Origin: Alphaproteobacteria bacterium
Lineage (GTDB): Bacteria; Pseudomonadota; Alphaproteobacteria; TMED109
Assembly (NCBI GenBank): GCA_022825235.1
Contig: JAJDYI010000064.1
Coordinates: 1 to 64,000 of the forward strand
Reading direction: 5' to 3'
Length of the DNA stretch: 64,000 nt
The notes beneath the pieces were generated by a model that was not told the origin of the DNA, ran no database searches, and saw only the letters and a program-made list of their open reading frames with translations. The position numbers and the translations under genes are program-made. Of the stretch, positions 10,429 to 39,558 are shown piece by piece; positions within the stretch are counted from its first letter, which is position 1; every line of letters begins with the position of its first letter.

Positions 10429-11457
10429 CTACTCCTTTTGCCCGACGACATCGTCGAGGATGGCGTCGGTTGACATTCCCTCCGCCTCCGCCTCGAAGTT
10501 CAGGATGATCCGGTGGCGAAGGGCGGGGGGGACCATCGCATCGACGTCCTGGAGGCTCACGTTGAACCGACCGTCGAGCAGCGCTCCCACCTTGCCGGCC
10601 AGCACCAGGGCCTGGGCACCGCGCGGGCTGGCGCCGTAACGCACGAACCGCTTGACGCTGGACGGCGCGCCCTCGGTCTCGGGGTGCGTGGCCAGGACCA
10701 GTCGGGACACGCGCTCCTTCACCTCGCTCGGCACCAGCACGTCGCGGACAAGCAACTTGAGGTGCTCCACATGATCGATGTCGGTGACCTGGCTCCCGGC
10801 AGGCTCTTCCCGGCCGGTGGTGCGATCGATGATTTCCGCGATCTCCTCGGCAGCCGGCGCCCCGACGGACAGCTTCAGCATGAAGCGGTCGATCTGCGCT
10901 TCGGGCAACGGGTAGGTGCCGTCGATCTCGATCGGGTTCTGGGTCGCCAGGACGAAGAAGGGCCGCGGGAGCGGATGGCGCTTGCCGCCCACCGTGACCG
11001 CGTGTTCCTGCATCGCCTCCAGCAGGGCGGACTGTGTCTTGGGCGTGGCCCGGTTGATCTCGTCGGCGAGCAGGACCTGTCCGAACACGGGACCGGGCTG
11101 GAACCTGAGCTCGCGGCCGGTCTCCAGGTCCGCGATCACGTCGGATCCGATGATGTCGGCGGGCATCAGGTCGGGCGTGAACTGGATGCGGGCCATTCCG
11201 ACCCCCAGGCACCCGCACAATGCCTGGATCATCCGGGTCTTTCCGAGTCCGGGAAGTCCCTCGATCAGCGCATGGCCTCCCGTGAACAGGCAGATCAGCA
11301 TCTGCTCCACGACGCGATCGTGGCCGACAATGGTGGCACCGATCCCGTCCTTCAGCTTCTCGAACGTCTCGAGGAACTCCCGGGCGCGCTCCGTGCCGTC
11401 GCCGGGCGCCGCCAGGTCGGTGACCGCGGCAGCCTGCGAACGCATCGCTGTCGTCAT
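10429..11457 (-). CDS. MoxR-family AAA+ ATPase (342 aa)
   Basis: AAA+ ATPase of the MoxR group. Walker A is GLPGLGKT at residues 67-74 and Walker B is VLLADEINRA around 128-137, followed by sensor 1 VLATQNPIE. MoxR proteins act as chaperones with VWA-domain partners that bind metal or unfolded protein, and the partners lie directly upstream here. I chose the ATG at 11457, preceded by AAGGAG; it overlaps the stop of the triple-VWA gene. The open frame continues upstream without homology. It probably drives remodelling or maturation of an envelope or metal-enzyme complex, but the client is unknown. Confidence 0.95.
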   Translation of the reverse strand: MTTAMRSQAAAVTDLAAPGDGTERAREFLETFEKLKDGIGATIVGHDRVVEQMLICLFTGGHALIEGLPGLGKTRMIQALCGCLGVGMARIQFTPDLMPADIIGSDVIADLETGRELRFQPGPVFGQVLLADEINRATPKTQSALLEAMQEHAVTVGGKRHPLPRPFFVLATQNPIEIDGTYPLPEAQIDRFMLKLSVGAPAAEEIAEIIDRTTGREEPAGSQVTDIDHVEHLKLLVRDVLVPSEVKERVSRLVLATHPETEGAPSSVKRFVRYGASPRGAQALVLAGKVGALLDGRFNVSLQDVDAMVPPALRHRIILNFEAEAEGMSTDAILDDVVGQKE

Positions 11458-14400
11458 TGCTTCTCCTTCATTCGATTGGCCCGCCACCGGGCGCCGAGAT
11501 CCAGCAGCAGCATGGCGAGTGCGGCTGCGAGCAGCCACTCCCGGATGGGGACGGGATGCGGATACGGCTCGCGTTGCAGCTGGAATACGTCTGTCGCCCG
11601 GGTGAGCACGTGGCCCCCGGTCTGCGTCGCAAGCATATGCAGGAATGTCCGGTCGGGCGGACGATGCCGGAATTCCTCCGGGTAGGAGACCACGGCGCCG
11701 GTGATGGTGGAGACGTCGGTCCCGGGGTCCGGGGCGCGGTCGCGATCATCGTTCGCGGCGAACCCGGCGCCCGCGTCGTGGTCCAGCGAGACGGCGACCA
11801 GGTACGCGCCCTGCCCCGCGGCGGCGACGGTTCCCTGGTGGCGCCCGGGCGCGACCTGGCGGAGCTGCAGCACCCGGCTCTCCCGGTCCGGCCGGACCAC
11901 CTCGGCCTGCACGCGCGCGAAGTTGACCGGGCGCCCGTCTTCGCCCGCCACGTCGACCGTGATGCCCACCTGGTCCGCGTCGACCTCGGTGCGGACGGCC
12001 AGGTCGTCCCGGCGCTCGCTCTTCGCCGCCCAGCGCACGAGCTGCGCAAACAGCGGCCCGAGTGACTCCCACTCGATCCACTGCGCTCCCCAGCGCGGCT
12101 TGATCTCGGACGTGAACACCGCGGTCCTGCCGAGACCGAAGCGCCAGGCCGCAAGGACCGGATCCTGCGCCGGGCTCTCCAGGAGCACGTCCGCGCCGCG
12201 CCGCGCGGTGGTAGCGACATACCCGTCGAGCGCCGGCACGGCATCGAGCACGTTGCCCCTTGCGACCTCGTGGTGGAGCGCCCGTGCTACGGGCCGGAAC
12301 GATTCCTCCACCAGGCCGCTGCGGGTCGCGAGCTGGGTTTCCATGGTGAAGATGCGCGGCAGCTTGGAGGCATCGCTCGTGAAGTAGAACCGGCCCTGGC
12401 CCATCTCGCTGATGCTCTGCAGTTGCGGCCTGCCCGTTTCCGAGCCGATGGTGACAGCGGAGACCGTGATCTTCTTGCCGACCATGCGGCCGAGAAGCTC
12501 CGGAAACTTCGAGGAGTACACCTCGCCGTCCGACAGGATGATCACGTGGCGGATGACGGCGGGGCTGCGGGCGATGGCCCGGTACGCCTTCTGGAGGCCC
12601 CACATGAGCTGCGTGCCCCCGCCGCCGGCGCGCATCGTCGCGATGGTGTCGAGCACCCGGCCCGGTGCCCCGATGGGGCCGATGGGCACGACCCAGTCGG
12701 ACTTCATGTCGAAGGCGAGCACCCCGAGCTCGGTGCGCTGGTCCATCACCCCGACCGCGCGCTGCGCGGCCTCGCGGGCAAGCGCCAGCCGGTGATGGTC
12801 GCCGTCGGCCTGGTTCATGCTCCCGGACCGGTCGATCAGCAGCACGACGGCAGTGGAGGGCGCATCGAGCTTGCGCCGGGCCACCATCCTGACCGGGAGC
12901 GCCTCCTCGACCGGCGTGTGGTAGTACCCGCCCAGACCGAAGCTCCGCTCGCCCCCCAGCATCACCAGTCCACCGCCGCGGTCGCGCACGAAATCGCGGA
13001 GCGCCCGCATCTGCGCATCGCTCAGCGCCAGGGACGAGAGGTTGCTGAGCAGCACCACGTCGAAGCCGGCGAACATCTCCGGTCCGGGCGGGCCGGTGCC
13101 GGCTAGCCCGGCCGCGAACTCGGCCGGGTCCGCATGCACGCTGACATCGATGTTCTGGGTCCTGAGGGCGCGGGCGAGGAACTCCGCTTCGGCCGGCACC
13201 GGATCGAACAGCAGGGCGCGCAGCGCCGGCCGGACCGCCACGACACCGGCCGCGTGGTTGTTGCCCGGCTCCCGGTCTTCAGCGGACTCGACCCGAGCCT
13301 CGAAGATGCCGAACCCCTCGCGGTCCATCACGTCCCGATGGACCAGCGGGTTGTCGCCGCGGCGGACCTGCACCTGGCCGGACTGCACGAGCGCGCCATC
13401 GCGGAACAGTCCGATGCGCGCGGTACCGTCCTGTTCCGCGCGGACCGTGATCCGGATGTCGAACGGCTCGCCGCGCCGGACATCGGCGGGCACGTCGACG
13501 CGCTCCACGGAAATCTCTCCCGGCGCCGGGCCGCCGATCACGACCGGGTGGACCGCGATCCCGCTGCGACGGGCGCTCTGGAGGATCCCGGCCGGGTCGG
13601 AGACCGTGTCGTGACCGTCGGACAGCAGCACCACGCGGCGATCGCCCGTTTCGGGCAGGAGCGTCTGCGCGCGCCGCAACGCCAGGGCCAGGTCGGTCGC
13701 GCCGTGCTCGGGGTCCGGGGTCGACGCCGGCCCCGGGCCGGGTCCGGCCGCGCCGTCGTCAGGCGCAATCACCCTCGCGTTCCCGCTGAAGCCGACGATG
13801 CCGACGGTGTCGTCCGGACCGGCCTGGTCCGTGGCCAGCGCCGCCTCGCCGATCGCCGCATCCGCGGCGGGCGTGCCGATGCTCGCGGACTCGTCGACGA
13901 CGAACACCACGTGGCGTGCCTCGGTGTCCAGCAGCAGGTTGGGCTGCCACAGCGCGACCGCCGCCAGGGACAGGGTGACGAACCGGAGGCCGGTCGCGAG
14001 AGGCGAAGCCTGCCTTCGCCGGCGGCAGAGGTAGAGGGCGAGTTCGGCGCCTCCCGCGGCGAGTGCGACGAAGGCGAGGATCAGCCAGAGCGCCTGCTGG
14101 TGCGGGTAGGTCGGAGGCGGAGGGCCGGCAGCGGCCGCATCTGACGCAGGTGCGGCCCCGCCCGGCGCGATATCGGACTCGGTCGCATCGAGGAGGTTGA
14201 CCGCGATCCGGTGCGGAGAACCGTTGTCGGTGTCACGGCCCGCATGGAGGCCGGCGAGGAGCCCGACGTTGGGACCTTCGCCGGGAACCGCGGCGCCCGT
14301 GCGGTACTGCACCGGCAGCGAGTCCAGCCGGACGGGATGCAGCCACTCCAGCGCGTTGCCGATGAGGAGGGGGAAGGCGACCCGTACCCGGAGGTCCGAC

Positions 14401-15869
14401 TGCAGGGAGCGGAAGCCGAGGAAGACGGCCCGGACGGCCCCGTCGGCGCCCTCTCCCGTCCCCGCTCCCTCGCGGGCACCGCCGTCGTCAGTGCCCGGTC
14501 CGCTCCTCCGGCGGGCCGCATGCCCTTCCGCCCCGTCATCCCAGGCGTACATGAGGAGGGTGTCACTCGACTTCGCGAGGACGGTGCCGCGGCTGTCCGG
14601 CGTCTTCCGGTGCACCGCGAGCGCATCCTCGATCAGCAGGTCCGTGAGGTCCACGTCGCGCATCACCGGATGGGCCTGGTGCCAGCCGGTGACGGCCGGC
14701 CGTTCGACCCGGCCGCCGGCCGCAACGGGCGCATCGGCCGGGAGCCCCCCCAGGAGCAGGTACCGCCCCGGCGGCAGGCGCTCGGGCGCCGTGGCATCGA
14801 TCACCACGACATCGGCCCCGGCGGCGTGGGCAGCGGCAACGGACGGCGCCCGGAACAGCTGGCCCGCACCGTCGGACCGCAGCGCTTCCTCCAGGAACAG
14901 GTCACCTTCACCGACCAGCGCGATCCGTCGCAGGCGCGGCGCGGGCAGCACCGCGTGCACCATGTCGTCCGCGCTCAGCACGTCGCCGCCGTCGATGCGG
15001 GCGGTGAGCACGCCCGCGGCATCGTGGCGGAACGGCAGGACCGCGCCCCTCTGCACCCCCGGCGGCAGCGAGAGTGTCTGCCGGTGGAGCAGGGCGTCCT
15101 CGAACGCGACCTCGAATTCCACGGCGCGCTCGGCATCGTCGAAATTCGCGATGGTGAGGTAGAGCTGGTAGTCGGCCCCGGGCGCGGGGTCCCTTCGAAG
15201 CGCGAATTCGGTGATGCCGGCGTTGGCCGACGACTCGCCGACTAGGTGCCAGACTAGGGGCGTGTCGGGGGCCGGCTCCGCCGACGGCTCGGCGGCGTCG
15301 GTGAACACGTGGATGCGCGCCGCGGGTCCCGCGGCGACGAGACGGCGGGCGACGTCCAGTGCATCGGTCAGCCGGTCCGGCCGGTGGGTCGCGGCGAGGC
15401 CGTCGATCCCGGCCCGGAGGCGGTCCGTGTCCGTGGTGAAGGGAACCACGACCTCCCCGCGGGAGGTCATGAGCATCCCCGACTGGCTCCGATCGAGCGC
15501 CTCGGCGACGCCTCGGGCCATCCGGCGCGCCGCTTCGAACCGCCCTTCGGGGATGTCGGTCGCGTGCATGCTGGCCGAGGTGTCGACGATCATGACCACC
15601 CGGGGCCAGCCGGACTGGGTGGTCGACCAGAGCGGATTGGCAATCGCGAGTGCCGCGGCAATGACCGCGAGGAGCTGAAGCCCGAGCGAGGCGCTGGGGC
15701 GCAGCCGCAGCCAGGCTGGACGCGGCGAGCCGCGGCGATTGTCGACCGCCTCCCACAGCGAAAGTGTCGTTACCCGGACCTCCCGGCGTCGCACGCGGTA
15801 CATGTGCAGCGCCAGGACGAGGGGAACGGCAGCGAGCAGCCAGAGCGCGGCGGGGTTGGCGAGGCTCAT
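11454..15869 (-). CDS. Giant membrane protein with three VWA domains (1471 aa)
   Basis: A fusion of two protein types usually encoded separately. Residues 1-80 are a BatA-type aerotolerance N-terminus with two membrane helices. VWA 1 has its MIDAS motif DTSAS at Asp96. A membrane helix follows at about 594-612 and another near 630. VWA 2 has DESAS at Asp659. An amidotransferase-like region with GGGLVMLGGERSFGLGGYYH (about 965-985) leads into VWA 3, with DRSGS at Asp1013. A final helix near residue 1455 anchors the C-terminus. Homologues are usually two genes, a BatA-like and a glutamine amidotransferase/VWA protein. It starts at ATG 15869, overlapping the DUF58 stop, and is probably the MoxR partner at the membrane. 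Confidence 0.93.
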   Translation of the reverse strand: MSLANPAALWLLAAVPLVLALHMYRVRRREVRVTTLSLWEAVDNRRGSPRPAWLRLRPSASLGLQLLAVIAAALAIANPLWSTTQSGWPRVVMIVDTSASMHATDIPEGRFEAARRMARGVAEALDRSQSGMLMTSRGEVVVPFTTDTDRLRAGIDGLAATHRPDRLTDALDVARRLVAAGPAARIHVFTDAAEPSAEPAPDTPLVWHLVGESSANAGITEFALRRDPAPGADYQLYLTIANFDDAERAVEFEVAFEDALLHRQTLSLPPGVQRGAVLPFRHDAAGVLTARIDGGDVLSADDMVHAVLPAPRLRRIALVGEGDLFLEEALRSDGAGQLFRAPSVAAAHAAGADVVVIDATAPERLPPGRYLLLGGLPADAPVAAGGRVERPAVTGWHQAHPVMRDVDLTDLLIEDALAVHRKTPDSRGTVLAKSSDTLLMYAWDDGAEGHAARRRSGPGTDDGGAREGAGTGEGADGAVRAVFLGFRSLQSDLRVRVAFPLLIGNALEWLHPVRLDSLPVQYRTGAAVPGEGPNVGLLAGLHAGRDTDNGSPHRIAVNLLDATESDIAPGGAAPASDAAAAGPPPPTYPHQQALWLILAFVALAAGGAELALYLCRRRRQASPLATGLRFVTLSLAAVALWQPNLLLDTEARHVVFVVDESASIGTPAADAAIGEAALATDQAGPDDTVGIVGFSGNARVIAPDDGAAGPGPGPASTPDPEHGATDLALALRRAQTLLPETGDRRVVLLSDGHDTVSDPAGILQSARRSGIAVHPVVIGGPAPGEISVERVDVPADVRRGEPFDIRITVRAEQDGTARIGLFRDGALVQSGQVQVRRGDNPLVHRDVMDREGFGIFEARVESAEDREPGNNHAAGVVAVRPALRALLFDPVPAEAEFLARALRTQNIDVSVHADPAEFAAGLAGTGPPGPEMFAGFDVVLLSNLSSLALSDAQMRALRDFVRDRGGGLVMLGGERSFGLGGYYHTPVEEALPVRMVARRKLDAPSTAVVLLIDRSGSMNQADGDHHRLALAREAAQRAVGVMDQRTELGVLAFDMKSDWVVPIGPIGAPGRVLDTIATMRAGGGGTQLMWGLQKAYRAIARSPAVIRHVIILSDGEVYSSKFPELLGRMVGKKITVSAVTIGSETGRPQLQSISEMGQGRFYFTSDASKLPRIFTMETQLATRSGLVEESFRPVARALHHEVARGNVLDAVPALDGYVATTARRGADVLLESPAQDPVLAAWRFGLGRTAVFTSEIKPRWGAQWIEWESLGPLFAQLVRWAAKSERRDDLAVRTEVDADQVGITVDVAGEDGRPVNFARVQAEVVRPDRESRVLQLRQVAPGRHQGTVAAAGQGAYLVAVSLDHDAGAGFAANDDRDRAPDPGTDVSTITGAVVSYPEEFRHRPPDRTFLHMLATQTGGHVLTRATDVFQLQREPYPHPVPIREWLLAAALAMLLLDLGARWRANRMKEKQ

Positions 15870-16762
15870 GCGAGGAAGCCTGCCGCGCGAAGCTGCTGGA
15901 GGAGCTGGACGTCGGACGTGCCGGTGCCGGCGAGACGCAGGTACGGGATCTGGAGCTGCCGGCACAGCGTCACCCGCTCGTCGAGGAAACGGGCGAGATT
16001 CTGCTGGTAACGCCTGTGGGTCGCGCGCTCGGCGGTCAGTCTCTTCGCCGTTGCCCGCGAGGGTTCCTCGACGTCGAGGAGTTCCACGTCGCCGTCGATG
16101 TCAGGCGACATTTCGTCGTCTGCCAGCACATGCACCACGCGCAGGTCGAGCCCGCGCGCCAGCAGTGCCCGGAGGCCTGGCTCGATGCGGGTCACCGGCT
16201 CGATGAGGTCGGAGATGACGACCGCCACACCGGGCGGGAGCGATGCACGGGCGTGTCCGGCCAGGGCGTCGCCGAGGCGGGTGCGCCCACCCACCCGGAT
16301 GGTGCCGAGCAGGTCGAGGAGGCGCGCCATCTGACGGTGGCCCCGGCGCGGCGTCAGCGTGCGATGCGCGTCGTCGGCGAGCAGTCCCACGGAGACGCGT
16401 TCGTGGTTGGCGAGCGCCACGCAGGCGAGCACGGCCCCTGCGCGCAGGCCGTGGTCGAGCTTGGATGGCGTGCCGACTCCCATCGACGCGCTGGTGTCGA
16501 CGAGGAGATGCAGGCAGAGATCGCGGTGTTCGCGAAAGCGCTTGACGACGATCCGGTCCAGCCGGCGGTAGACGTTCCAGTCCACGTAGCGCGTGTCGTC
16601 CCCCGGCACGTAGGGCCGGACGTCGACGAACTCGAGGCTCGCGCCGTAGCGCGGGCTGCGTCGTTCTCCGGGAATGCGTCCATCGAAGAGACGTGCGGAA
16701 TCCAGCCGCAATCTGGCAAGCCGGTAGAGGAAGGCCGCGTCAAAGCGTTCTGCGAGGCTCAT
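15866..16762 (-). CDS. DUF58 domain protein (298 aa)
   Basis: DUF58 protein, a VWA-like fold normally found between MoxR and BatA-type genes. The family block EFVDVRPYVPGDDTRYVDWN is intact, followed by the MIDAS-type LVDTSASMG and VVISDLIEP. No transmembrane segment is seen, so it should sit in the cytoplasm or at the inner face of the membrane. Start (16762) and stop both overlap neighbours by ATGA, giving strict coupling between the upstream membrane protein and the triple-VWA gene. Its expected role is as a MoxR partner. Confidence 0.95.
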   Translation of the reverse strand: MSLAERFDAAFLYRLARLRLDSARLFDGRIPGERRSPRYGASLEFVDVRPYVPGDDTRYVDWNVYRRLDRIVVKRFREHRDLCLHLLVDTSASMGVGTPSKLDHGLRAGAVLACVALANHERVSVGLLADDAHRTLTPRRGHRQMARLLDLLGTIRVGGRTRLGDALAGHARASLPPGVAVVISDLIEPVTRIEPGLRALLARGLDLRVVHVLADDEMSPDIDGDVELLDVEEPSRATAKRLTAERATHRRYQQNLARFLDERVTLCRQLQIPYLRLAGTGTSDVQLLQQLRAAGFLA

Positions 16763-18998: not shown

Positions 18999-19601
18999 AT
19001 GAAGGCATTCAGGCCTGTGAGAAGCCGCGGTAACCGCTGGAATCGTCGTCATATCGTACAGGGCGTCCTTGGTCTGGGAATCGCGGGAGGATTGGCTTCT
19101 CCCGACGCCTGGGTAGCGGACGCCGAAGCACAGGAGATCGCGCGTCAACGTCCGCAGGACGGCGATCAGCTGACGTTCTTCGGCGGCGACCGCGATGGCG
19201 AAGTCATCGTGCCCGCCGATCTCACGCTGGGGGAGCAGCCATTCATTGCTTACCCTCGCGATCCGTCTTCCGGCGTGATTCGGGATGGATCACGCCTCAA
19301 CCAGATCACGTTGCTGCGGGTTGATCCCAACCGATTCGACGACCGGACCCGACCGGGCACCGTGGACGGGATCATTGCCTTCTCAGCTACCTGCACGCAC
19401 CAGCAGTGTCCGGTGACCGCGTGGGACGTTGAGGCCGAGGCGCTGTTCTGCTTCTGTCATCGGTCCCGCTTCGATCCGTGGAATGCGGGCAAGGTCGTGA
19501 ATGGACCGGCCACGCGGAAGCTTCCGACACTGCCCTTGCGATTGGCGGGCGAAAACGACCTTAGAATTGCGGGCGGCTTCAGCGGACGGGTCGGAAACTG
19601 A
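18999..19601 (+). CDS. Rieske [2Fe-2S] protein, exported (200 aa)
   Basis: Rieske-type iron-sulfur protein. The two ligand boxes are CTHQQC (about residue 131) and CFCHRSRF (about 151). They keep both Cys/His pairs and also the extra cysteines that form the disulfide in bc1-type Rieske proteins. The N-terminus has NRRHIVQGVLGLGIAGG, an Arg-pair plus hydrophobic stretch compatible with Tat export. No cytochrome b gene is nearby, so it is not an obvious bc1 subunit. It lies 115 bases before a PQQ dehydrogenase gene on the same strand and could accept electrons in that pathway; this is inference. Confidence 0.85.
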   Translation: MKAFRPVRSRGNRWNRRHIVQGVLGLGIAGGLASPDAWVADAEAQEIARQRPQDGDQLTFFGGDRDGEVIVPADLTLGEQPFIAYPRDPSSGVIRDGSRLNQITLLRVDPNRFDDRTRPGTVDGIIAFSATCTHQQCPVTAWDVEAEALFCFCHRSRFDPWNAGKVVNGPATRKLPTLPLRLAGENDLRIAGGFSGRVGN

Positions 19602-19701
19602 TGCCGCAACCTGAATGTCGGGTGTGTCTCCGTGGGAAGAGACGCCCGGGGGGTGCTTCGGCACCCCGTTCACCATCCAACCGATCCCACGACAGACAAC
19701 C

Positions 19702-19716: not shown

Positions 19717-21456
19717 ATGAGGAGTCTACTGACGGGCAAGGCGGTCGCGGCCGCACTTCTCGCCCTGATGGTGAGCAGCGCGACCAGCGCCAACGCCATC
19801 GAGAACTACAACCCGGTCACCGAAGATCGACTGGACAATCCCGAGCCGCACAACTGGCTTCAGGTGCGGGGCAACCGGGAGGGATGGGGGTACAGCCCAC
19901 TCGACCAGATCAACGCCGCGAATGTCGGATCCCTGCAGCCGGCCTGGCTGTTCTCGACCGGCGTTCAGGAAGGACACCAGTCTCCGCCGCTGATCAACGA
20001 CGGCGTGATGTATGTCACCACGCCGATGAACCAGGTCCTGGCACTCGACGCAGCCACGGGCAAGCGGCTGTGGCGCTATCAGAGAGAGCTGCCGGAAGAC
20101 CTCTTCCAGCTGCACCCCACCAACCGTGGGCCGGCGCTGCTCGGCGACAGGCTCTACGTGGCGCTCACCGACTGCTTCCTGGTCGCGCTCGATGCCCGGA
20201 CCGGCGAGGTGATCTGGGAGACCGCCGTCGACGACTACCAGTCCGGCTACTACATGACGCTCGCTCCGCTGGCTGCCAAGGGCAAGATCATGGTGGGTGT
20301 GTCCGGCGGTGAGTACGGCATCCGCGGTTACATCGCGGCCTACGACGCGGAGTCCGGTGAAGAGGCGTGGCGCACCTACACGGTGCCGGCGCCGGGCGAG
20401 CCGGGAGCGGACACCTGGCCGGATGACGACGCCTGGAAGACCGGCGGCGGATCGGTGTGGCTGACGGGGAATTACGACCCCGACACGGGAATTTCCTATT
20501 GGGGCATCGGCAACGCGGCACCCTGGATGGGCGACACCCGCGGCGGCATGGACAACCTCTACACCACGTCCGTCATGGCGGTGAATGTCGAGACCGGGGC
20601 GCTCGTGGGACACCACCAGTACCACTGGAACGATTCCTGGGACTGGGATGAGGTATCACCCCCGCTCATCTACGACGTCACCCGTGACGGGGAGACCTTC
20701 AAGGCTCTCGTCAACGTGGCCCGCAACGGTCACATCTACCTTCTCAAGCCGACCGCCGACGGACCGATCGAGTTCGTCGACGCGTGGAACTACGTCTACA
20801 GCAACGTGATCACCGCGTTCGATCCCGACACGGGCCGCGTGTCGTATGACGACAACCACTGGCCGGGCACCGGGAAGGCCGCTCTGTTCTGTCCGTCGCT
20901 CTGGGGCGGCAAGGACTGGCCGTATTCGGCCTACAGCCCGGACACGGGCCTGCTCTACATTCCGGCGAACGAGAACCTCTGCAGCACCCTGGAAGGCGCT
21001 GAAGAGAAGTACGTGCCGGGCGAGCTGTACATCGGGGTGCCGATCCCGGTGATCCTTGGCGGGTTCAGCCTCCGTGAGGGGTGGGACCACATCGGGGAAA
21101 TCCAGGCCTGGAACGTCGACAGTGGCGAGGAAGTCTGGAGCAAGAACTTCAAGCACCAGAACTGGGGTCCGATTCTCGCGACCGCAGGCGGTGTGCTGTT
21201 CTCCGGCGGCACCAACGACCACATGTTCCGTGCGCATGACGCGACGACCGGCGAAACGCTGTGGGAATACCCGACCAACTCGGGTGTGACCGCTTCGCCG
21301 AGCACCTACAGCGTCGACGGCAAGCAGTACGTTGCCGTGCAGTCGGGCTGGGGTGTGGACGCTGAGCGCAAGCAGGACGTCCTGCGCGGCATCATTCCCG
21401 GGTATGACGTGCACGTACCGCAGGGTGGCGTGATCTGGGTATTCGCGCTTCCGTAG
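19717..21456 (+). CDS. PQQ-dependent alcohol dehydrogenase, lanthanide type (579 aa)
   Basis: Periplasmic quinoprotein dehydrogenase with an eight-bladed propeller fold. A signal peptide covers about residues 1-27 and is cleaved after ATSANA. Metal and catalytic residues align with the MxaF/XoxF family: Glu199 in GVSGGEYGIRGY, Asn266 in GIGNAAPW, catalytic Asp309 in WDWD, and Asp311 two residues on. Asp at that +2 position is the mark of lanthanide-dependent enzymes, whereas calcium enzymes have Ala there. The vicinal Cys-Cys pair of methanol dehydrogenases is absent (QLHPTNRG occupies the place). No cytochrome c or xoxJ gene is adjacent; a Rieske gene precedes it. The substrate is probably an alcohol. 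Confidence 0.93.
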   Translation: MRSLLTGKAVAAALLALMVSSATSANAIENYNPVTEDRLDNPEPHNWLQVRGNREGWGYSPLDQINAANVGSLQPAWLFSTGVQEGHQSPPLINDGVMYVTTPMNQVLALDAATGKRLWRYQRELPEDLFQLHPTNRGPALLGDRLYVALTDCFLVALDARTGEVIWETAVDDYQSGYYMTLAPLAAKGKIMVGVSGGEYGIRGYIAAYDAESGEEAWRTYTVPAPGEPGADTWPDDDAWKTGGGSVWLTGNYDPDTGISYWGIGNAAPWMGDTRGGMDNLYTTSVMAVNVETGALVGHHQYHWNDSWDWDEVSPPLIYDVTRDGETFKALVNVARNGHIYLLKPTADGPIEFVDAWNYVYSNVITAFDPDTGRVSYDDNHWPGTGKAALFCPSLWGGKDWPYSAYSPDTGLLYIPANENLCSTLEGAEEKYVPGELYIGVPIPVILGGFSLREGWDHIGEIQAWNVDSGEEVWSKNFKHQNWGPILATAGGVLFSGGTNDHMFRAHDATTGETLWEYPTNSGVTASPSTYSVDGKQYVAVQSGWGVDAERKQDVLRGIIPGYDVHVPQGGVIWVFALP

Positions 21457-21791: not shown

Positions 21792-22262
21792 TCAATCCCC
21801 CGCAAACGCGATCAGTCGCCCGCAGACGAGTGCTCCCAGCCAGCAAGCCATCGAGAGGATGGCGTGGCCGACCAGGCTCGCGCGCGGGGCGTCCTTGAGC
21901 AGGAACCCGTGGGTCCGGCACAGAGCGAGTGCAGACAGTACCCCGACCGTGATGAAGGCCAGCTTGAGCTGCAGGAAGCCGACGTCGCTGTATTCCCGCG
22001 CCCGGACCGAGAACAGCAGCGGTCCCGTGATCAGGGCAAGGGCCAGCCCGCTTGCCGCAACGGGCGCGAGCACCCGCACCACCGCTTCGCGCGGGATACC
22101 GCGCCACACGCCAAGCAGCCGCAGATTGAGCGGGACGACGGACCCGACCAGCAAGGCGATCGCGAAGATGTGCGCGGCGTTGACGCCGGCATAGATCCAG
22201 CGCGAGCCCCGCAGGGTCTGCGCCAGGGCCGTCCCCTCGAGCGCCGCGAACAGGGCCTCCAA
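21792..22262 (-). CDS. DUF6644-like membrane protein (156 aa)
   Basis: Small integral membrane protein with about four or five helices. The family start EALFAALEGTALAQTLRGSR is followed by the segment AHIFAIALLVGSVVPLNLRL, both typical of DUF6644. The likely start is TTG at 22262, because no ATG lies near the conserved beginning. It starts four bases after the DUF6152 stop, so the two are coupled. The function is unknown; in this layout it may be a membrane partner of the exported DUF6152 protein. Confidence 0.75.
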   Translation of the reverse strand: MEALFAALEGTALAQTLRGSRWIYAGVNAAHIFAIALLVGSVVPLNLRLLGVWRGIPREAVVRVLAPVAASGLALALITGPLLFSVRAREYSDVGFLQLKLAFITVGVLSALALCRTHGFLLKDAPRASLVGHAILSMACWLGALVCGRLIAFAGD

Positions 22263-22266
22263 GGCC

Positions 22267-22632
22267 TCAGTCGCGATTGGGGTAGAGGATGTACTCCCGT
22301 GTGCCGAGGAAGAACCGTTCCGCCTTCACCAGTTTCTTCGACAGATCCGCCGCCGGCTCGCCGATCACCCGGATCTCGACCCCTTCGGCCAGGTCACCGT
22401 CCTTGAGGCCGGCGCGTTCGTTGCGCCAGGGCTGACCGACCTCGGCCGTCCACTCCTCGCCCTCCACGTCGATCTTCAGGATGCCGTGGGGGTTGCCCAG
22501 GCTGACGGCCTTGATGATGCCCGTCAGGTCGATGTTGCCGCCGGTCGTCCACGACCAGCCGTGATGAGCCAGAGCCCCGACCATCGGAGCCGTGAGCCCC
22601 AAGGCCAGGACCGTGCTGAACAAGAGCCTCAT
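22267..22632 (-). CDS. Exported DUF6152 protein (121 aa)
   Basis: Periplasmic protein of the DUF6152 family. A signal peptide ends about ALAHHGW, with the family hallmark HHGWSW right after it. The body has IKAVSLGNPHGILKIDVEG and the closing FLGTREYILYPNRD. I chose ATG 22632 because GGAGG lies about 10 bases before it; an ATG at 22655 is possible. The family is thought to bind ligands through an OB-like fold, but its role is not established. It pairs with the following DUF6644 gene and converges on the PQQ dehydrogenase. Confidence 0.82.
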   Translation of the reverse strand: MRLLFSTVLALGLTAPMVGALAHHGWSWTTGGNIDLTGIIKAVSLGNPHGILKIDVEGEEWTAEVGQPWRNERAGLKDGDLAEGVEIRVIGEPAADLSKKLVKAERFFLGTREYILYPNRD

Positions 22633-22869
22633 TTCCGTGCGCCTCCGTTGCTTCATGTGCCACCGGGAAGGCTCCGTCACACGACCGGACATGCAAGCCG
22701 GCGCTTCCGGGACGACCTTCCGGTTCATGGCGATCATACCGTTGGAAAAACGATGACCGGGCGCTCAAGGGAGGCCTGTCCACGCGGCAGTAGCTCAAGC
22801 CGCCTTCCGAGAATGGGAACTGGCAAACCCGCTGGCCGACCAACCACGCGCACGAGGTTTCGGTACGGG

Positions 22870-36574: not shown

Positions 36575-37750
36575 ATGATCATGCTGCTCACCTATCGCGT
36601 ACTCGACGACGAAGAAAAACGGGTGGAGGAAGCCACGGCAGCTATCCGTGACCGCCTACGCCAGTTCGTCGCGACGGAGCCACGTCGCTGGACAGGTCTG
36701 CTCGCCCGCATGACCCGGGCCCGCGCCTTGGTCGGGTCAAACAGCGTGGAGGGAATCAACGTATCCGAGGATGACGCCATTGCCGCAATCGACCAGGAAG
36801 ATCCGGCGACCACCGACCGGAGCACTTGGCGGGCTGTCGTTGGCTACCGCGAGGCGATGGACTACATCCTCCAGCGCCGCCTGAGCCCATCCTTCAGAAT
36901 CACGGAAGATGTGCTTCTGGCTGTCCACTTCATGATCTGCCAGTCCGACCTTGCGGCCAATCCAGGTCAGTACCGGCCGGGGTGGGTTGGAGTTCGAAAT
37001 GCCCAGACCGGGGAACTCGTACATGAGGGGGTGGATCGCGATGACCTGGAAGCCCTCGTGCACGAGCTGTTGGACTACGTGAACAATGGCCCGGTGGGGT
37101 CAGTGTTTCTACGCGCGGCCATGGCCCATTTGAACCTGGCGATCCTGCACCCGTTCACGGACGGAAACGGTCGTACTGCCAGATGTATCCAGACCGCAGT
37201 GTTGGCAAGCGACGGCATTATTGCGCCGGCATTCTCCTCGATTGAGGAGTACATTGGTCGCAATCAACGCGCGTACTACGACGTATTGGGAGAAGTAGGC
37301 GGGGGCACCTGGGATCCAAGGCGTAACCCCAAGCCGTGGGTTCGCTTCTGCCTAAGCGGTCACTACCTGCAGGCGCAGACCATCCTTCGGCGGATGCGTG
37401 AGGTGGAGCGGGTTTACGGCGAGCTCTCGGAACTAGTTCAAACCAGCGGAGCCCCTGATCGCACGGCTTTGGCTCTCGTCCAGGCTGCCTTTGGCGGCAA
37501 GGTGCGGAATTCGTCCTACCGGGTAAGTGCGGACGTGTCGAAGAATGTTGCCAGCCGTGATCTGAAGGTGCTCGTGGACGCCAAGTTCCTCGTTCCGGAG
37601 GGGGAAAAGCGTGGTCGCTCGTACGTAGCCGCTCCCGTAGTACAAACAATTCGTCAGCGGTTGCGGCTTCCCAAGATCGTCGAAGATCCATTTGCTGAGG
37701 GAGGGCCAGCGCTGCCGCGTCAGGAAAGCCTGTTTCCCGAGATCGCCTAG
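36575..37750 (+). CDS. Fic-family protein, class II self-inhibited (391 aa)
   Basis: Fic-domain AMP-transferase. The active-site loop HPFTDGNGRTAR is intact. An N-terminal inhibitory helix carries GSNSVEGI (S-x3-EG), the class II pattern that blocks the ATP site in cis. C-terminally there is a winged-helix-like region (RNSSYRVSADVSKNVASRDL). Such proteins usually AMPylate a target protein; the target is unknown. The ATG is at 36575 with a second at 36581. It follows the broken VapBC pair. Confidence 0.92.
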   Translation: MIMLLTYRVLDDEEKRVEEATAAIRDRLRQFVATEPRRWTGLLARMTRARALVGSNSVEGINVSEDDAIAAIDQEDPATTDRSTWRAVVGYREAMDYILQRRLSPSFRITEDVLLAVHFMICQSDLAANPGQYRPGWVGVRNAQTGELVHEGVDRDDLEALVHELLDYVNNGPVGSVFLRAAMAHLNLAILHPFTDGNGRTARCIQTAVLASDGIIAPAFSSIEEYIGRNQRAYYDVLGEVGGGTWDPRRNPKPWVRFCLSGHYLQAQTILRRMREVERVYGELSELVQTSGAPDRTALALVQAAFGGKVRNSSYRVSADVSKNVASRDLKVLVDAKFLVPEGEKRGRSYVAAPVVQTIRQRLRLPKIVEDPFAEGGPALPRQESLFPEIA

Positions 37751-38046: not shown

Positions 38047-39558
38047 ATGCCGGGAATGTCCGTCGCCAAATCGCTGCATCAGATGCCCGAGGCGTTCGTG
38101 TCGGACAAGGCGATCACGCGGCAGGTGTCCCGGATGGTCAAGGCCGGCAAGCTGCGCAAGCTGGCCTCGCGACTTTATACCCGCGACCTGACCGACCGGC
38201 CCGAGGCGGTCGTCGCCCGCAACCTGTGGCAGATCGTTGCCGGCTTTTTCCCCGGCGCGCTGATCGCCGACCGCACGGCACTGGAAAACGCCCCGGCGAG
38301 CGATGGTTCGGTCTGCCTGGTTGCCGATCGCGGAAGAGACATTCACCTGCCCGGCCACGTCCTCCGGCCACGGCGAGGCGCGGGGCCGCTTCCTTCGGAC
38401 CGGCCCTTCCTCGCTGAACTGTTCCTGAGCGCGACGGCGCGCGCCTATCTGGAAAACATGCGCCCATCGCGCGCACGGGGAGGCTTGGTTGCGCGCACCC
38501 TCGGACGGGCGGAGATTGAGGAACGGCTTGACGCTCTGATCCGCCGTTCGGGTGAAGAAGCCGCCAACCGTCTTCGTGACGAAATCCGCGCCACGGCACC
38601 AAGTCTCGGCCTCGGAGCGGAAGCTGCGGCGCTTGATGCCCTGATTGGCGCCCTGCTCGGCACCCGTACGGCAGCGTTGACCGCGCCCGCCGCCATGGCG
38701 CGGCGGCATGGCCGCCCCTTCGATCCGGCCCGGCTCGCGCTGTTCGGAACCCTGCACGCGGCGCTGCGCGATCATCCCCCGCTTTCGCGTATCGCTCCGG
38801 ACCGCACGACCGAGGGTTCCGCGACGCTCGCCTTCTTCGATGCCTACTTCTCGAATTTCATCGAGGGTACCGAATTCGATGTCGGGGAGGCCGCCGACAT
38901 CGTCTTCCGCGGCTACATCCCCAACGAGCGACCGGAAGACGCGCACGACGTGCTCGGCACGTGGCGGATCGTCTCCGATGACCGGGAAATGCGCCGCACA
39001 CCAACCAACGCCGCCACACTCGAAGCGCTCCTCAAGTCCCGCCACGCGACCATCATGGAAGGCCGCCCCGACCGGCGACCAGGGTCTTTCAAGCAGGCGG
39101 AGAACCGGGCCGGGGCCACCGTCTTCGTCGCGCCGGAACTGGTCGCGGGTACCCTGTCTCATGGCCTGGAACTTTGCCGAAGCCTGGAGACACCGTTCCA
39201 GCGCGCAGCCTTCATGATGTTTCTCATTACCGAGGTCCACCCCTTTGCCGACGGCAACGGGCGAACCGCGCGGATCATGATGAACGCCGAGCTGGTGGCA
39301 GCGGGCGAGGAACGGATCATCGTGCCCAGCGTGTACCGCGCAAACTACCTGTCGGCGCTGCGAGCGCTGTCCCGGACGGGTCGGCCGGAGCCGATGATCC
39401 GCATGCTCGATTATGCGCAGAAATGGACGGCGGCCGTCGACTGGCGCTCCGTGGAGGAGACCCGGCGCGAGCTCGACGCCTGCGACGCATTCCTTGACGC
39501 CTCGGTCGCCGAGGAAGAGGGGAAGCGGCTCAGGATGCCGGGACTGTCGGCGGGTTGA
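38047..39558 (+). CDS. AbiEi-like winged helix fused to a Fic domain (503 aa)
   Basis: A two-module protein. Residues 1-130 look like an AbiEi-type antitoxin region: KAITRQVSRMVKAGKLRKLA, RLYTRDLTDRPEAVVARNLW and ALIADRTALENAP. Residues about 230-490 form a Fic domain with the active loop HPFADGNGRTAR and an inhibitory motif FSNFIEGTEF (S-x3-EG) upstream, so self-inhibition is expected. The start at 38047 is preceded by GGAGGAGGG. A second ATG at 38056 is possible. It could act as an autoregulated Fic AMP-transferase that binds its own promoter; both parts are seen, but the joint role is inferred. Confidence 0.88.
   Translation: MPGMSVAKSLHQMPEAFVSDKAITRQVSRMVKAGKLRKLASRLYTRDLTDRPEAVVARNLWQIVAGFFPGALIADRTALENAPASDGSVCLVADRGRDIHLPGHVLRPRRGAGPLPSDRPFLAELFLSATARAYLENMRPSRARGGLVARTLGRAEIEERLDALIRRSGEEAANRLRDEIRATAPSLGLGAEAAALDALIGALLGTRTAALTAPAAMARRHGRPFDPARLALFGTLHAALRDHPPLSRIAPDRTTEGSATLAFFDAYFSNFIEGTEFDVGEAADIVFRGYIPNERPEDAHDVLGTWRIVSDDREMRRTPTNAATLEALLKSRHATIMEGRPDRRPGSFKQAENRAGATVFVAPELVAGTLSHGLELCRSLETPFQRAAFMMFLITEVHPFADGNGRTARIMMNAELVAAGEERIIVPSVYRANYLSALRALSRTGRPEPMIRMLDYAQKWTAAVDWRSVEETRRELDACDAFLDASVAEEEGKRLRMPGLSAG

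Follow-up and report, generated by a model that had tools for sequence, protein, structure and literature searches.

The window, a 64,000-nucleotide stretch of contig JAJDYI010000064.1 from an alphaproteobacterium, carries a gene for a PQQ-dependent alcohol dehydrogenase preceded on the same strand by a gene for a Rieske [2Fe-2S] protein. The original prediction, which concerned the dehydrogenase, did not mention the Rieske gene at 18999-19601. The features of the two genes are as follows.

18999..19601, + strand: Rieske [2Fe-2S] protein (PF00355), Tat-exported as judged from its signal sequence, proposed electron acceptor; 115 bp upstream of the dehydrogenase
19044..19049, + strand: Arg16-Arg17, the twin-arginine pair in the Tat-type signal peptide of the Rieske protein (in 46 family members Arg17 is invariant and Arg16 reaches at least 90%)
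19392..19460, + strand: Rieske cluster region, Cys132-x-His134-x-x-Cys137 ... Cys151-x-Cys153-His154 (six residues invariant in 46 aligned family members)
19717..21456, + strand: PQQ-dependent alcohol dehydrogenase with lanthanide-type ligands and without the vicinal disulfide, probably PQQ-ADH type 6a (TIGR03075, AlphaFold2 model)
20113..20121, + strand: codons of His133-Pro134-Thr135, the motif that replaces Cys-Cys-Asp-x-x before Asn-Arg-Gly (His133 and Thr135 in 84/84, Pro134 in 83/84 of the close clade)
20311..20313, + strand: codon of metal ligand Glu199 (84/84 in the close clade; aligns with the Glu of PedH and XoxF)
20512..20514, + strand: codon of metal ligand Asn266 (84/84 in the close clade)
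20641..20649, + strand: codons of Asp309-Trp310-Asp311, with the catalytic Asp first and the additional Asp of the lanthanide-type site last (Asp309 84/84, Asp311 83/84 in the close clade)

The dehydrogenase and its metal site

The dehydrogenase frame starts at Met 19717, is uninterrupted up to its stop at 21456 and encodes 579 aa with a Sec-type leader. The sequence just upstream of this Met is AGGGAGGT, and a longer start is offered by an ATG at 19615. The protein belongs to the PQQ-dependent methanol/ethanol dehydrogenases of TIGR03075 (545.4 bits against a cut-off of 480.05). Its AlphaFold2 model has a mean pLDDT of 91.9, and the closest solved fold is that of PedH (6zcw; VIA-align Z 52.5, rmsd 1.7 over 528 residues), which is also the best solved relative by sequence.

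Glu199, Asn266, Asp309 and Asp311 had been named as the metal ligands. This numbering holds, the four positions correspond in the alignment to metal ligands in PedH and XoxF, and Asp311 itself falls at the ligand position of the metal site in both proteins. The dehydrogenase has the Glu/Asn/Asp/Asp set of lanthanide-type ligands found in XoxF, and among 84 close-clade members the sole exception at Asp311 is L016, which has D-x-A. D-x-D is also present in 42/42 other PQQ dehydrogenases collected, including families of untested metal use, and therefore Asp311 alone is not distinctive of this enzyme. What is distinctive is the loss of Cys-Cys together with a Rieske neighbour. Judged by its ligands, the metal site appears to be of the lanthanide type, and lanthanide use would be expected.

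The missing Cys-Cys motif

The reported absence of the Cys-Cys pair was borne out. The enzyme reads FQLHPTNRG at the position of CCDxxNRG in others, so that Q-L stands for Cys-Cys and is followed by an invariant His. In the alignment CC is present in XoxF, MxaF, PedH and the type II references. It is replaced in all 84 close-clade proteins, nearly all of which have HPTNRG. In the whole clade of Rieske-paired enzymes without Cys-Cys the replacement is His-Pro-Thr or, in a few, His-x-Thr. Some members of types 6a, 2a and 2b have been noted as lacking Cys-Cys (PMC8561711).

Two other groups of PQQ dehydrogenases without Cys-Cys were seen (IPHNRG; FFQPYNRG/FFTPYTRG), and neither has an adjacent Rieske gene (L046:4234-5952, L077:333-2162, L080:1620-3335, L092:9876-11561, L080:13471-15249 and L030). 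The disulfide was therefore lost more than once among PQQ dehydrogenases. A single genome encodes two near-identical, highly divergent PQQ dehydrogenases with FAHTRG and no Cys-Cys (L006, G000:C24; L007, G000:C9).

Surroundings of the gene pair

No CXXCH-containing ORF was found at 9000-32000 of the window, around the dehydrogenase, and no xoxG or xoxJ adjoins it, in agreement with the original prediction. The genome encodes eight PQQ dehydrogenases. One of them is a canonical XoxF on another contig, which has Cys-Cys and lies beside a cytochrome-like ORF and the xoxJ homologue of this genome (an xoxF-G-J set). The genome also has pqqE, and a viral-contig scan gave no match. Downstream of the dehydrogenase, on the - strand at 21792-22737, lies a pair of genes for a DUF6644-like protein (weak match) and a DUF6152 protein.

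The Rieske protein

The protein at 18999-19601 matches PF00355 with 40.6 bits (cut-off 20.3). Across the aligned family there is no variation in the four cluster ligands (two Cys, two His) or in the two bridging cysteines. Its model has a mean pLDDT of 90, and the closest solved fold is the Rieske protein of T. thermophilus (1nyk; TM 0.91 by target length), followed by QcrA of bc1 and then by the small subunit of arsenite oxidase. It scored 59 bits against TIGR02694 (arsenite oxidase small subunit), below the cut-off of 95.65. AioB and the bc1-type Rieske protein 1nyk share with it the fold and the [2Fe-2S] ligands, but they go with a molybdenum enzyme or with cytochrome b, whereas this protein neighbours a PQQ dehydrogenase.

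A second Rieske protein, bc1-like by eye, is encoded elsewhere in the genome (L126), and the copy at 18999-19601 is therefore probably a dedicated one. That it could be the Rieske subunit of the bc1 complex itself is unlikely, because that separate bc1-like protein exists, the Tat signal appears cleavable and no cytochrome b gene lies beside it.

Conservation of the dehydrogenase–Rieske pair

A genome contig scan gave 80 matches to the dehydrogenase at 57-97% identity, which together with same-genus relatives made 84 proteins. These close relatives come from Proteobacteria, Rokubacteria, Acidobacteriota, Myxococcota and Tectimicrobiota. Two of the loci (L053, L105) are in records titled as Klebsiella pneumoniae MAGs, and these titles are probably wrong. 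The 42 controls were further PQQ dehydrogenases of the same loci and genomes, with flanks of mostly about 1.3 kb and less in a few. A Rieske gene lies at most 600 bp away in 77/84 close-clade loci versus 0/42 controls (Fisher p about 2e-26, a value that is overstated because the loci are related). The seven exceptions comprise one locus with a Rieske gene 952 bp off, one with a fragment and five with none in the stretch. In four of these five, the same Rieske family is encoded at another place in the genome (216-261 bits), and the fifth (L104) gave only a weak match to it.

The reverse search gave the same picture. A profile of the Rieske family matched 12 of 398 genomes in the phylum (E below 1e-25), and 12/12 matches adjoin a homologue of the dehydrogenase, 49-57% identical to it outside its own genome. 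We therefore reject the reading of the Rieske gene as a chance neighbour, on the control comparison and this reciprocal search. Gene order varies, the Rieske gene being downstream of the dehydrogenase in G025, Alteromonas and Paracoccus, so the link does not reflect inherited order alone. The named isolates in which the pair occurs are Roseomonas marmotae, Azoarcus sp. KH32C, Alteromonas macleodii, Paracoccus alcaliphilus, Deinococcus aetherius and Methylobacterium aquaticum 22A. In relatives that have Cys-Cys, cytochrome genes are found instead, as in Caballeronia and in the XoxF locus of the same genome.

Over all 89 pairs, the distance matrices of the dehydrogenase and the Rieske protein are correlated (r 0.84). 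In 18 diverse pairs the correlation was not significant (r 0.33, best permutation 0.45), and because the signal fades there, co-divergence was set aside as evidence.

In Entotheonella (L179 3708-5599, L180) the Rieske gene stands apart from the type-6a dehydrogenase, and the gene after it on the same strand encodes a 422-aa CXXCH protein. About 2.7 kb away is another PQQ dehydrogenase (36% identical). G025 has a small cytochrome gene, then the PQQ dehydrogenase, then the Rieske gene.

Phylogeny

The IQ-TREE tree was built without the Cys-Cys and metal columns. The Rieske-paired enzymes without Cys-Cys formed one clade (support 100/99). Within it a D-x-A branch (100/100), which has the calcium signature and the same Rieske partner, stands beside the D-x-D enzymes (90/83), which include the dehydrogenase of the window. 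M. aquaticum 22A has one member of each branch, and G025, which belongs to the same genus as the window, is of the D-x-A type. XoxF and MxaF form a separate clade (100/100) that does not include our enzyme, and on this tree and the missing Cys-Cys we reject its identity as an ordinary XoxF. PedH also falls outside the clade, so there is no grouping with PQQ-ADH type 2b (PedH/ExaF), and the position of PedH near other long branches is poorly fixed. The divergence that had been predicted is thus found as a well-supported clade, separate from XoxF/MxaF and PedH even with the Cys-Cys and metal columns left out. The description as a lanthanide clade holds for part of it: the site of our enzyme is of the lanthanide type by sequence, but the mark is not universal, since one branch with the same Rieske partner has D-x-A.

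The sister of the clade is the enzyme of Deinococcus aetherius (92/91), which has both Cys-Cys and a Rieske neighbour. Rieske pairing therefore probably came before the loss of Cys-Cys, a first step that rests on one genome. The simplest history is Rieske pairing, then loss of Cys-Cys, then, in one branch, replacement of D-x-D by D-x-A. The Deinococcus gene lies on a plasmid (L156 3314-5608), is followed by ABC transporter genes and may be an intermediate.

Discussion

Most soluble PQQ dehydrogenases are known to pass their electrons to c-type cytochromes. For PQQ alcohol dehydrogenases, the acceptors known to us comprise c-type cytochromes, attached haem domains, cupredoxins and quinones, with no Rieske protein among them. 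Our data suggest, with a probability of roughly two in three, that this periplasmic PQQ alcohol dehydrogenase with a lanthanide-type site works with the product of the neighbouring gene, a dedicated soluble Rieske [2Fe-2S] protein exported by the Tat route. Alcohol would be oxidised at PQQ bound to a lanthanide ion held by Glu199, Asn266, Asp309 and Asp311. The reduced PQQ would then give its electrons singly to the Rieske cluster, from which they may pass to a c-type cytochrome and a terminal oxidase. The CXXCH gene after the Entotheonella Rieske gene and the cytochrome gene before the G025 pair suggest a cytochrome as the next carrier. The substrates are presumably alcohols. Aldehyde dehydrogenase genes lie near the pairs of some relatives, which fits alcohol oxidation.

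In ExaA the vicinal disulfide has been linked, with reference to earlier work, to the passage of electrons from PQQ to cytochrome c550 (PMC12997753). In our clade this disulfide is gone, and a probably dedicated one-electron protein is kept instead. A strict coupling of the two traits is rejected: Deinococcus aetherius has both the disulfide and the Rieske partner, and no Rieske gene adjoins the Rokubacteria paralogues without Cys-Cys. The loss of the disulfide and the coupling to a Rieske protein are thus not tied one to one, and the absence of Cys-Cys alone does not predict the electron route. The original prediction of a different electron route gains a concrete candidate in the conserved Rieske neighbour.

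The acceptor could also be a soluble cytochrome c encoded elsewhere, as for PedH and XoxF, with the Rieske neighbour serving in maturation, oxygen protection or regulation. Cytochromes are the usual acceptors of such enzymes, one is encoded in the xoxF cluster of the same genome, and Deinococcus keeps Cys-Cys beside its Rieske gene. This reading is nevertheless unlikely, given an association that is two-way and independent of gene order across several phyla, with the Rieske protein kept even when unlinked. The full invariance of the cluster-binding residues is as expected for electron transfer, and no cytochrome gene lies within about 10 kb. A stable two-subunit enzyme, with the Rieske protein built in and not a mobile carrier, would be a sub-case of the dedicated Rieske partnership. 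One of the closest solved Rieske relatives is AioB, which likewise acts for a periplasmic oxidoreductase separate from itself, and the two genes are adjacent with a similar spread. AioA, however, relies on its Rieske subunit for Tat export, unlike the PQQ protein with its own Sec-type leader, and gene order and linkage are not fixed; an AioAB-like complex is rather unlikely. As to the metal, the site might be loaded with calcium in vivo and Asp311 be only a marker of descent. The sister branch with the same partner and the calcium signature would fit this, as would D-x-D in all the other PQQ dehydrogenases collected. The retention of Asp311 in all close-clade members except the D-x-A member speaks against it, and we consider it quite improbable.

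The dedicated Rieske partnership may extend beyond this locus. We lean towards a class of periplasmic alcohol dehydrogenases that is widespread, has a lanthanide and a calcium branch, and wires PQQ to a dedicated Rieske protein, as carrier or subunit, and not directly to cytochrome c or quinone. The clade is divergent, as predicted, and very probably corresponds to PQQ-ADH type 6a, which is uncharacterised rather than unknown. Type 6a is reportedly a class in the classification of Keltjens et al. 2014. The assignment comes from plasmid 1p of M. aquaticum 22A, on which two family members are found, one at 144 and one at 449 kb, each beside a Rieske gene. Two genes of 1p, Adh4 and Adh6, were placed in type 6a, and the type was called uncharacterised (PMC7356819). 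The two family members are likely to be these genes, judging from the plasmid and the spacing (305 kb fits the locus tags). The clade described here differs in also holding the D-x-A branch. In deep ocean water, transcripts of type 6a have been listed with the dominant ones of PQQ dehydrogenases (PMC11996626).

Among characterised enzymes, PedH of Pseudomonas putida KT2440 (type 2b) has the same four ligand positions, but it is 36-38% identical, has Cys-Cys and lies on a separate branch. XoxF shares the fold and the D-x-D site; unlike our enzyme, it has Cys-Cys and, in the same genome, an adjacent cytochrome gene and xoxJ. The literature searched, mostly outside subscription papers, gave no mention of a Rieske partner for PQQ dehydrogenases or for type 6a. 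What is new here, as far as we found, is such a partner for a clade that very probably has a name and whose lack of Cys-Cys had been noticed earlier.

If the proposed partnership is correct, a lanthanide site and an iron-sulfur cluster would be joined in one electron chain, and it would be explained how the clade manages without the vicinal disulfide. A specific Rieske partner would also be a reason why standard cytochrome tests might miss type 6a activity. The family allows lanthanide and calcium sites to be compared naturally within one partner system, and it is an evolutionary test case for the role of the disulfide.

Other genes of the window

On the - strand at 11454-15965 a 1503-aa ORF looks like a single-frame fusion of two BatA-type VWA membrane proteins. 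Two nearby ORFs at 36575-37750 and 38047-39558 have weak matches to Fic-type protein adenylyltransferases.
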